Below are positions 24,936-28,200 of a stretch of DNA of 64,000 nt, piece by piece. The notes under the pieces are model-generated. The model searched no databases. It had not been told where the DNA came from and saw only the letters and a list, made by a program, of their open reading frames with translations. The DNA comes from Euborellia annulipes (taxonomy: Eukaryota > Arthropoda > Insecta > Dermaptera > Anisolabididae), in NCBI GenBank assembly GCA_023213315.1, contig JAKCPI010001635.1:113870-177869 (forward strand), read 5' to 3'. The stretch's first letter is position 1, and the number at the start of each line of letters is the position of its first letter. The translations under genes and the position numbers were made by a program.

Positions 24936-25469
24936 AAGTGGGCGAATTTTTTTTCCTACTGTAAGCCCACCTATCTTTCTTAGTGGTTGATGGAATTGAT
25001 CTTGTAAAAAGAAAGAAAGAGAGAGAAGGGTTATTTTTAAATAGTCTGGAGTGATAGTGCTAACTATGAACATATATATGGACCCTGTTATGCATTAGTG
25101 TGTCAAGCGCCAAAAAATTAAGCACGGTATATTGTTTCAAATGCTATAATTAATAGTATTTTTTATGAAATATGTCTTAAAAAAATTTATATTTACAGTT
25201 ACTTGCACAATTGACAAAAAAAATTATATATAATCTAATCCAGTGGTTCCCGACCTTTTTGGCCCATCGCCCCTTTCTGGAGGTTGTCTATCACCTATCG
25301 CCCCCCCTTTTCATTTTCATTGCATGATTTAAAATTTTTAACAAAAAAGTACTTTATTTCAAAGTGAATCACTCAAGTTCCTCAGAAAACGTTTTCTTTT
25401 CAAAATGAATACACCTGCAGAAATAGTGACTGAAACGGTGAAATTTTCAAATATGAGTAGGATGGAAGC

Positions 25470-25600
25470 AGGAAAGAAATCAGACAAAAATTTAATCAAT
25501 CTTTATCTAATTTTTAATTTCGATTGCCGACATTTCGGACGCAATCGCATCCTTCCTCAGGATAAAGATTGATTAAATTTTTGTCTGATTTCTTTCCTGG
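25470..25600. ncRNA. Long hairpin with hammerhead-like core in its loop
   Basis: Arms of about 38 bp (25470-25507 and 25561-25599, aggaaagaaatcagacaaaa and complement) pair almost perfectly. The 53-nt loop, read on the minus strand, has CTGAGGA, stem II GGATGC/GCGTCC with a GATT loop, GAAATGTC. Only one base of the CTGATGA box differs. The long arms act as an extended, internally bulged stem I. Confidence 0.5.
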
Positions 25601-25729
25601 CGTAACCTTTTAAAAATCTAATAATAATTTTATTTTTAGTAAGGAAATAACAAAAATGCATCTTTTTTCGGTCAATCTTTATTTAATGAAAAAAAAATGA
25701 CAAAAATTATTAATCAATTCTAGATTGGG

Positions 25730-25775
25730 ACGTTTCAATTCTAGATTGGAATTATCATCAGACTATTTTATTTTT
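25730..25775 (-). ncRNA. Hammerhead-like core inside the hAT element
   Basis: On the minus strand: exact CTGATGA, stem II AATTC/GAATT with a CAATCTA loop, exact GAAACGTC. Stem I is poor. The related copy at 35195-35236 has CTGAAGA and GAAACGTC with the same stem II, showing that the stem is shared between copies. Confidence 0.5.
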
Positions 25776-25957
25776 ATGTCAATATTTTTTTCTCTTTGAT
25801 TTATTCTTTTAAATTTTAGTTAACTCTAATAATTTTTCCCCCTTTGAATACTCACGCCCCCCCAGTCGCCCCCCGCTTATTTATCGCCCCCCTGATATCC
25901 CAAATCGCCCACTTGGGGGCGACGCCCCAGGTTGGGAACCACTGATCTAATCAAAAC

Positions 25958-26211
25958 GCCCTCGGGGTTTGGTGTAGAGGTTAGCGTGATAACCTCGTAT
26001 ATCAAAAGTCGCGAGTTCGGACCCCAGGCAGTTCGATGATTTTATTTAAGCCATTTGGATACCAAATGGCTTAAATAAGAATGCCTGGACCCCTAATATG
26101 TATGTTAATCTCTATAACGGATAAGTAAAAGTCTTAAATGGCCTAAGTTGCCGAAAAGACTGTCTGTATGTGTGTGTGAATGAGAAAAAACTGTGAGTGT
26201 TAAAAAAAAAA
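25958..26211 (+). mobile_element. tRNA-derived SINE (GCCCTCGGGG family) with 13-bp TSD
   Basis: The head GTTTGGTGTAGAGGTTAGCG forms the A-box region, and GCGAGTTCGGACCCCAGGCA the B box. The body has a foldback gccatttggataccaaatgg. The tail includes GCCGAAAAGACTGT, (TG)n and GAGTGTTAAAAAAAAA. The duplication atctaatcaaaac occurs at 25945-25957 and 26212-26224. Other copies are at 53810, 55630 (reverse), and truncated ones at 42053, 51428 and 63615. Confidence 0.9.
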
Positions 26212-26287
26212 ATCTAATCAAAACAAAAAACTTTAATATGAGGATGCGTTACAAGGGCAGCCAAGGCGAAAAATAAAACAAAAATCT

Positions 26288-26340
26288 ATTTTTTGTCGAC
26301 GTTTCGAGTGCCGATCGCACTCTTCATCAGGACAAAAATG
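26288..26340 (-). ncRNA. Hammerhead ribozyme motif, best copy
   Basis: Minus strand: stem I strand ATTTTTGTC (26331-26339), CTGATGA (26324-26330), one extra A, stem II GAGTGC/GCACTC with loop GATCG (26306-26322), GAAA (26302-26305), then the self-complementary ACGU as stem III, C17 at 26298, and stem I partner GACAAAAA (26290-26297). Eight consecutive stem I pairs form. A two-base-pair ACGU stem III without a loop is weak in a single unit but forms well between two copies, as in known dimeric hammerheads. Cleavage is predicted just after the C at 26298. Confidence 0.65.
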
Positions 26341-26478
26341 ATGTCAATTCGTCAGGTTGTTTGACATGGCAGTGTAGCAATATTCATTCGACCTCGAAAT
26401 ACTAGAGTCTTCAAGTAAATGTAAATTGGTTAAAACGTTGCTACACTGCCATGTCAAACAACTTGACGAATTGACATC

Positions 26479-26530
26479 ATTTTTGTCCTGATGAAGAGTG
26501 CGATCGGCACTCGAAACGTCAACAAAAAAT
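26479..26530 (+). ncRNA. Hammerhead ribozyme motif, inverted partner
   Basis: Same design as 26288-26340: ATTTTTGTC (26479-26487), CTGATGA (26488-26494), stem II GAGTGC/GCACTC, GAAA (26513-26516), ACGTC to 26520, then AACAAAAAA. The first pair of stem I is lost (C opposite A), but the remaining pairs hold. Confidence 0.6.
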
Positions 26531-27337
26531 AGATTTTTGTTTTATTTTTCGCCTTGGCTGCCCTTGTAACGCATCCTCATATCATAATATCCAGCCATCA
26601 AGAAACAACTAGCAAAAAACTTTAATGTTAATTTTCTCAAATCTCGGTAGCTGGCGCTTGACACACTAATGCCTAACAGGGTCCATATAATCATTCAAAA
26701 ATTTGATATCTTGCTAGTAAATCTTATAAATTCTTTCGGCCAAATTTTGATTATACTGTATTCTTCAGTTGATAATAAAAAATAAATCATCTCTTTGTTT
26801 ATTTATTGTATTTTGTTGTGTAGAAAGGTACCAAGGAGTCAAAGAGAATAAAAAAAAAAAAAATTATCTCTTTATTTATTGTAATATAAAAATTTGCATT
26901 CATGTGAAGAGACAGTAATATATTTGTTAAAATTTCAGTAATAAATTTTTTGATATCTCAGATATTTCATCAGCTTCCTGGTAAAAATTTCTTCAATAGG
27001 ACAGAATTTTTTATTCTAAACGACTAACTAAAATATTATATTAAACAATAATAGTTAAACGGCAAGAATATTGTTATTAATATAAATTAACATATGACAT
27101 GCATTCAAAAGTTAAAGCCATCGCTCGGGAATTCCCACCCGCTGTGCAAAAGAAGGTTTTTCATAGCTGAATGACTTTCTAAAAAAAATACGGTAAATTT
27201 AAAAATCCCCAACTGCTTTATTGCGCTCGCTTTGAATAAACTAATGACGGCGAGTGAGGAATCGCACTTTTAATTTTTATAATCTTATAATATGGGAATT
27301 TTATTAATGTATGCAAAATATTTGTAGAGGATAATCT

Positions 27338-28030: not shown

Positions 28031-28200
28031 CTTGGCTCAGAGATAGAGCATTGGTTTCTGATACCAAAGGTCAAGGGTTCGGATCCCGTCCCAGGCGACA
28101 AAATTTATTTCAATTAAATTGTATACCAATCAATTGAAATAAATAGAAACGGGGTCTAAATGACCTCCAAAGCCGAAAAAGACTTTAAAACGAATTAAAA
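28031..28200 (+). mobile_element. tRNA-derived SINE abutting family B
   Basis: The head TTGGCTCAGAGATAGAGCAT (A box) and CAAGGGTTCGGATCCCGTCC (B box) form one of the best pol III promoters in the window. The body has TTTCAATTAAATTGTATACC and the tail is GACTTTAAAACGAATTAAAA. It starts exactly at the end of the family B element and removes the expected TTAA there. Confidence 0.8.

Follow-up and report, generated by a model that had tools for sequence, protein, structure and literature searches.

A gene-less palindromic retroposon with Penelope-like ends and hammerhead motifs in Euborellia annulipes, probably written by reverse transcription from both target strands

The element described here bears on how Penelope-like elements insert, why they carry tails and inverted ends, and why they have kept a hammerhead ribozyme (HHR). 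PMC11167929 reports that the enzyme of the Anolis element PAc cuts and extends both strands from two start sites inside its RNA, and that the interval between these sites equals the known tail. In PAc the HHR cut lies 26 bp and the start 111-118 bp into the ORF, i.e., by arithmetic from the same figures, 85-92 nt apart, and HHR mutants still insert. Pen2a of Adineta vaga, as described in PMC3846280, has inverted pLTRs, one of which carries a 31-bp tail, and is flanked by a 9-bp duplication.

The window analysed here, a stretch of 64,000 nt from Euborellia annulipes, contains an element of 375 bp in which two inverted arms of 145 nt each (26236-26380 and 26438-26582; 99% complementary) are separated by 57 nt, the two outermost arm bases falling inside the left target duplication. 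An earlier note on this DNA had described the palindrome arms, the HHR cores, the 14-bp target duplication and the 32-nt one-sided tail, all of which were confirmed on re-analysis:

26224..26237, no strand: left target-site duplication CAAAAAACTTTAAT, exact 14-bp direct repeat
26238..26380, minus strand: left inverted unit copy, 5'-truncated (unit position about 58), stopping at putative start site 1, tailless
26257..26264, minus strand: conserved TTGGCTGC box of the left copy
26298..26330, minus strand: HHR core of the left copy, stems I and II intact, predicted cut after C26298; covariation across families
26381..26612, plus strand: right copy, the complete ~231-nt unit, whose inferred RNA 5' end is at about 26382 and which stops at putative start site 2
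26488..26520, plus strand: HHR core in the right copy, with A26521 disrupting the first stem I pair; cleavage predicted after C26520
26554..26561, plus strand: conserved TTGGCTGC box in the right copy, where it would form the 5' strand of the stem
26581..26612, plus strand: one-sided tail of 32 nt, delimited by putative start sites 1 (26580) and 2 (26612)
26592..26597, plus strand: CAGCCA, predicted partner of UGGCUG, within the tail
26613..26626, no strand: right target-site duplication CAAAAAACTTTAAT, exact 14-bp direct repeat

The outer end of the left copy lies 60 nt beyond the HHR cut position, while the right copy matches six single-unit insertions that have their own target duplications. 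The tail of the window family reads AATATCCAGCCATCAAGAAACAACTAG, and the 5' end region of the unit holds a 12-nt palindrome, TTCGACCTCGAA. No coding sequence, and thus no ORF for reverse transcriptase (RT) plus GIY-YIG, was found in the 375-bp element; because such an ORF is expected only of autonomous members, our claim is restricted to a non-autonomous Penelope-like element. The earlier reading of a short non-coding retroposon with Penelope-like ends holds up for the HHR, the inverted arms, the one-sided tail and the variable-length target duplication, and is now backed by 40 scored places, by single units, by further families built in this way and by Penelope-like ORFs elsewhere in the assembly.

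Compared with the described systems, the element resembles Pen2a (PMC3846280) in its head-to-head inverted arms, one-sided tail, variable duplication and palindrome at the pLTR 5' end, and PAc (PMC11167929) in a minimal HHR, two internal starts with the tail between them, a start at a distance of 85-92 nt from the HHR cut and extension of both strands, the starts and the extension being deduced here from the copies. Penelope-like tails measure 30-40 bp on one side, compared with 32 nt in the window and 24-31 nt in three other families. Unlike Penelope-like elements with pLTRs, however, this is a pLTR-like unit alone, without an ORF, of about 375 bp rather than kilobases, and its motif occurs in thousands of copies. 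Metazoan non-LTR retrozymes (PMC7229834) are likewise small and non-coding, with a type I HHR and a probable dependence on Penelope-like elements, but they are arranged as tandem repeats rather than as palindromes and single units, and differ from the present unit in its helix III, which is ACGU. The short nonautonomous Penelope elements of heliconiine butterflies are also short derivatives multiplying in an insect; the word 'hammerhead' is absent from the text of PMC6685494, and its available passages contain no palindrome or start-site signal. We regard the window element as a non-autonomous Penelope-like mini-element that was probably made by two-sided target-primed reverse transcription. 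In L1 twin priming, too, two primers on two cut strands give an inverted insertion, as proposed here, but one of the L1 primers anneals at a random place within the RNA, whereas both ends of the window family are fixed sites.

The earlier note had claimed two complete hammerheads. In the left arm both stems are indeed intact, stem II with 6 bp and stem I with 8 bp, but the right arm has lost its first stem I pair through an A at 26521, a position occupied by G in the left arm and in most relatives. Helix III after GAAACGTC, read from the sequence, consists of just the self-complementary ACGU, in agreement with what had been noted. The HHR pattern has three matches in the window, the third at 25729-25761 on the minus strand, and none in 100 shuffles. 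A covariance search, proposed earlier as a check on the hammerhead assignment, turned out against it: over 26150-26700 the stock Rfam hammerhead families stay below threshold, with no match even at E ≤ 10. This miss would be explained by the published existence of minimal Penelope HHRs without a proper helix III (PMC7761336 and PMC6155905). The covariation in stems I and II that had been demanded of homologous copies is present in 15 sequences, which amount to about ten families because some rows are related (L207m and L207p are arms of one element; L046, L195 and L202 are kin, as are L194 and L223, and W25761 and W35230). These sequences were chosen by HHR core, not by stems, and the set of 15 was restricted to those with a 17-nt stem-loop II for easy alignment. 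Stem positions were paired in 81.4% of cells compared with 58.3% after shuffling (0 of 500 shuffles as high), pairing dropped to 27-45% when the register was slid, and all 14 pairs had changed on both sides; a smaller set of eight sequences gave 70.1% versus 50.9%. An HHR-only scan of fetched DNA from the same genome found 12 distinct cores with both stems, and none in 10 shuffles. By this covariation the hammerhead motif is real, and ribozyme cleavage is predicted only. Pattern matches in bacterial and viral contigs (26 stretches and at least 119 listed) were taken as mostly chance, and Rfam microRNA and sRNA matches in the window as spurious, driven by the palindrome; apart from these, the sole window match at the Rfam gathering cut-off is a tRNA at 28033-28089.

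The two HHRs sit on opposite strands. An RNA covering the entire element would therefore contain a single sense HHR, its second one being antisense, and a cutting dimer is possible only between molecules. The proposed dimer cleavage within one element is thus not supported. Neither is the description of the element as ribozyme-driven, given that units run through the uncut site, that the HHRs lie on opposite strands, that the stock Rfam hammerhead models give no match and that no inner end falls near the cut. Specifically, the HHR cut is at unit position 140, and in none of 30 independent palindromes does an inner end come closer to it than position 106, in a copy sample that was ranked by likeness to the window copy and therefore disfavours short arms. 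The HHR lies within the copied RNA, so that an RNA which yielded a full unit must have been uncut.

We searched the window's own assembly (903 Mb, 25,949 contigs) and scored 40 family places, the best-ranked of 1802 first-look candidates, which comprise 34 palindromes and six single units. Four of the palindromes (L017, L028, L031 and L041) repeat insertions already counted, leaving 30 independent ones. The six single units are 224-233 nt long, begin near ATTCATTCGACC, finish at the tail, and all have target duplications of their own, of 9-16 bp. Among the independent palindromes, 25 of 30 share an end word of at least 9 bp, compared with 27 of 870 mismatched flank pairs; the other five share none of that length. 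Their outer ends are constant: the tailed side ends 88-96 nt past the HHR cut in all 25 readable palindromes of the 30, the untailed side 52-63 nt past it in 26 of 27 readable ones (the exception, L039, at 145), and the two ends differ in every readable palindrome. From these outer ends we infer two preferred start points of reverse transcription. The centre junctions, by comparison with the constant outer ends, differ in nearly all 30. In 22 of them the tailed copy extends to the RNA 5' end (unit position ≤14), with an internal gap in L019 and L029, and the untailed copy does so in five of 30 (L021 unclear), the remaining 25 untailed inner ends being scattered over unit positions 22 to 106.

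Arm identity averages 0.919 within and 0.885 between elements (0 of 10,000 permutations as high), but only 9 of 34 elements have an arm that matches its own partner better than any other arm. Because arm identity was a weak test of common origin, diagnostic sites were used instead: at informative sites in 23 elements the two arms of one element agree 61 times out of 66, where 31.8 are expected. Taken together, constant ends, variable centres and the agreement between arms argue that each palindrome was assembled separately at insertion, from one kind of RNA. Some centres changed after insertion, since L010 and L017 (G000:C5079 and C3222) represent one insertion site, 94% identical over 1393 bp, with the spacer in opposite orientations, probably through recombination between the arms. 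Pfam searches of ten frames near copies gave host-type matches only, e.g., a CDK5 activator beside one copy, whose best named relatives are insect (Periplaneta 65%, Anabrus 61%). An early-ATG open frame in L044 (4217-4597, minus strand) spans the HHR and TTGGCTGC region without a Pfam match and recalls Penelope ORFs that begin in the HHR. L046 (9005-9545) contains two neighbouring insertions ~45 bp apart, one a single unit of the window family and the other a palindrome belonging to a second HHR family, and both are flanked by separate target duplications.

The same design is found well outside this family. The pattern CTGATGAWN{8,30}GAAACGTC has 12,836 matches genome-wide (6443 + 6393), compared with 0 + 1 for the reversed-pattern control, and the first 100 listed places contain 16 divergent pairs within 1 kb and no convergent or same-strand pairs. 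Six divergent pairs were covered by a first examination, and four were clear, namely the window element, L042, L014 and L046, with tails of 32, 31, 28 and 24 nt and duplications of 14, 12, 12 and 12 bp respectively; L047 and the window pair 22475/23186 gave nothing clear, and L042 is misplaced in the first alignment (A1). Of the 16 listed divergent pairs 15 were examined in addition, the sixteenth being L026 of the window family, to which L209 and L232 among the 15 also belong. Six of them were clear, ending 63/92, 93/70, 69/103, 59/91, 92/53 and 59/91 nt past the cut with duplications of 12-17 bp, three were weaker (77/59, 70/60 and 60/76) and six were not interpretable. The end geometry of the window palindrome thus recurs in families with different HHR stems.

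These families also tend to share a downstream box. GAAACGTC followed by TTGGCTGC (pattern GAAACGTCN{24,50}TTGGCTGC) occurs 13,312 times in the genome (6668 + 6644), compared with 15 times (7 + 8) in the control, and among the first 100 listed places all pairs less than 1 kb apart, 15 in number, are divergent. T[GA]GCTG is present in 18 of 31 HHR-downstream clusters and absent from 13. Nine of these 18 have an exact 6-nt complement 12-55 nt downstream, compared with a mean of 0.4 and at most 2 in 200 shuffles, and the other nine have none; the clustering was greedy, and among the nine stem clusters fam1/L208 and L195/L224 look related. In L203, UAGCUG faces CAGCUA, a compensatory change. Start site 1 would fall in the predicted loop and start site 2 in an A/C-rich stretch beyond the stem. 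The order HHR, 24-50 nt, UGGCUG, loop, CAGCCA and A/C-rich stretch is therefore a predicted docking and start signal. In the literature, chiefly what is freely readable and with the motif itself not used as a query, we did not find palindromic mini-elements or a TTGGCTGC/CAGCCA signal described.

Penelope-like enzymes are encoded in the same genome. In a GIY-YIG profile search all of the best 150 of 710 candidates, those that were scored, exceeded the cut-off, and several of the frames are 800-850 aa long. Neighbouring GIY-YIG places less than 6 kb apart are divergent in 13 cases, on the same strand in three and convergent in none, and because they are mostly divergent, the large elements too are often head to head. 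One locus, L235, has RVT_1 and GIY-YIG in a single intact frame of 852 aa (Pfam), and its ATG is preceded, at a distance of 18 nt, by an HHR-like core. Counted from the cut, GCTGG and CCAGC follow at +36 and +71 in L235, compared with +35/+72 for the box pair in the window. The L235 protein has seven relatives at E ≤ 1e-20, six of them with RVT_1. L236 has RVT_1 just below the cut-off and a weak HHR-like match, L237 has RVT_1 and no HHR, and neither gave GIY-YIG in a whole-frame Pfam scan, so that one of the three fetched Penelope-like frames (L235) has a convincing HHR and stem. The enzyme donor of the window family was not found among the Penelope-like frames examined, and NCBIfam and PDB searches added nothing useful. 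At the left end of L237 (1-387), near the start of its ORF, there is a 378-nt inverted repeat (89%).

The neighbourhood of the palindrome contains further repeats. Window positions 25233-25952 have the ends CAGTGGTTCCC and GGGAACCACTG at 25241 and 25944, framed by an exact 8-bp flanking repeat, ATCTAATC (25233-25240 and 25945-25952), and look like a short hAT-type DNA element. This putative element encloses two HHR-like matches, 25529-25560 and 25729-25761; the former, on the minus strand with a 6-bp stem II, sits between perfect 39-bp inverted repeats (25469-25507 and 25561-25599), an arrangement opposite to that of the head-to-head palindromes. A tRNA-like repeat at 25961-26030 adjoins the palindromic element, and several sequences related to 25601-26238 recur at other window positions, which suggests a tRNA-derived SINE.

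The account that we favour, and consider likely, is that a Penelope-type RT/endonuclease acting in trans copied the ~231-nt RNA of this gene-less retroposon once per cut strand, giving head-to-head inverted copies. Specifically, the enzyme would cut both strands of an AT-rich target, at positions offset by some 9-17 bp. Reverse transcription would begin at site 2, about 92 nt beyond the HHR cut position, on one target strand and leave the tail there; on the opposite strand it would begin at site 1, about 60 nt beyond that position, and leave none. Both cDNAs would extend toward the RNA 5' end, one usually completely and the other cut short, and joining of the two cDNA ends would then form the palindrome centre; a one-sided version of the same reaction would give the single-unit copies. 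The copies, their ends and duplications, the varied junctions, the motif counts, the covariation and the intact Penelope-like frame can all be read directly, and from them we infer the enzyme and the order of events, together with the predicted RNA fold and any cleavage. One point against the model is that PAc is reported to show no difference in start sites between the strands (PMC11167929), whereas the two ends of the window family do differ.

An RNA or cDNA copy could also make a palindrome by itself. If a single cDNA or antisense RNA folded back at the palindrome of its 5' end and copied itself, the resulting hairpin could be inserted, as has been proposed for Adineta vaga Penelope palindromes (PMC3846280). 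The 12-nt palindrome near the unit 5' end would allow this, the agreement between the arms of one element also fits, and the centres of some copies look the part, being an exact snap-back in L015 and carrying a flipped TTCGAGGTCGAA in L012 and L019. However, such copies should have the tail, and then the flank, on both sides, while in the observed elements one arm ends at a constant site, about 32 nt before the other, with the target duplication directly after it, and L026 joins two complete 5' ends without a fold-back loop. We therefore find self-priming unlikely as the general route, and possible for some copies such as L015. Rather less probable is replication of the whole palindrome, as a fold-back master that is copied entire and whose centres were later scrambled by palindrome instability: 34 of the 40 scored places are palindromic and the spacer does invert between L010 and L017, but single-unit insertions with their own duplications exist, and the centres differ in nearly all of the 30 insertions while the outer ends are fixed.

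Still a little harder to uphold is a retrozyme cycle, in which a tandem-repeat transcript would be cut by the HHR, circularised and reverse-transcribed, with the ribozyme driving the cycle. A type I HHR in a non-coding, low-GC unit of ~230 nt fits the size class of PMC7229834, but the fetched stretches of the 40 family places contain no head-to-tail copy, the 100 listed places per pattern gave 16 and 15 divergent and no same-strand pairs, the unit ends do not coincide with the HHR cut, and helix III is just ACGU, in place of the usable helix III of a canonical HHR. Finally, long terminal inverted repeats with flanking duplications would suit a fold-back DNA transposon or MITE, an origin that we give almost no weight against the variable duplication length, the asymmetric ends and the existence of single units and 5'-truncated copies.

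Beyond two-sided target-primed reverse transcription of this one family, we put forward, tentatively and with some doubt, that dozens of ribozyme-marked, SINE-like families of this genome share one RNA docking signal, which would be the HHR followed by the UGGCUG:CAGCCA stem-loop, with one start in the loop and one past it. A dimeric Penelope-type enzyme might then couple two starts, one per target strand, which would make palindromes the normal product and the HHR a landmark of the folded, uncut template rather than a cutter. Such tiny elements reduce the insertion problem to an RNA of ~231 nt with thousands of natural insertion records, in which the outer ends would report the two start sites and the centres where cDNA synthesis stopped, and their common stem-loop points to a testable candidate for the binding signal. 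If the two halves were indeed written separately, the palindromes would record the mode of insertion of a poorly understood class of jumping genes.
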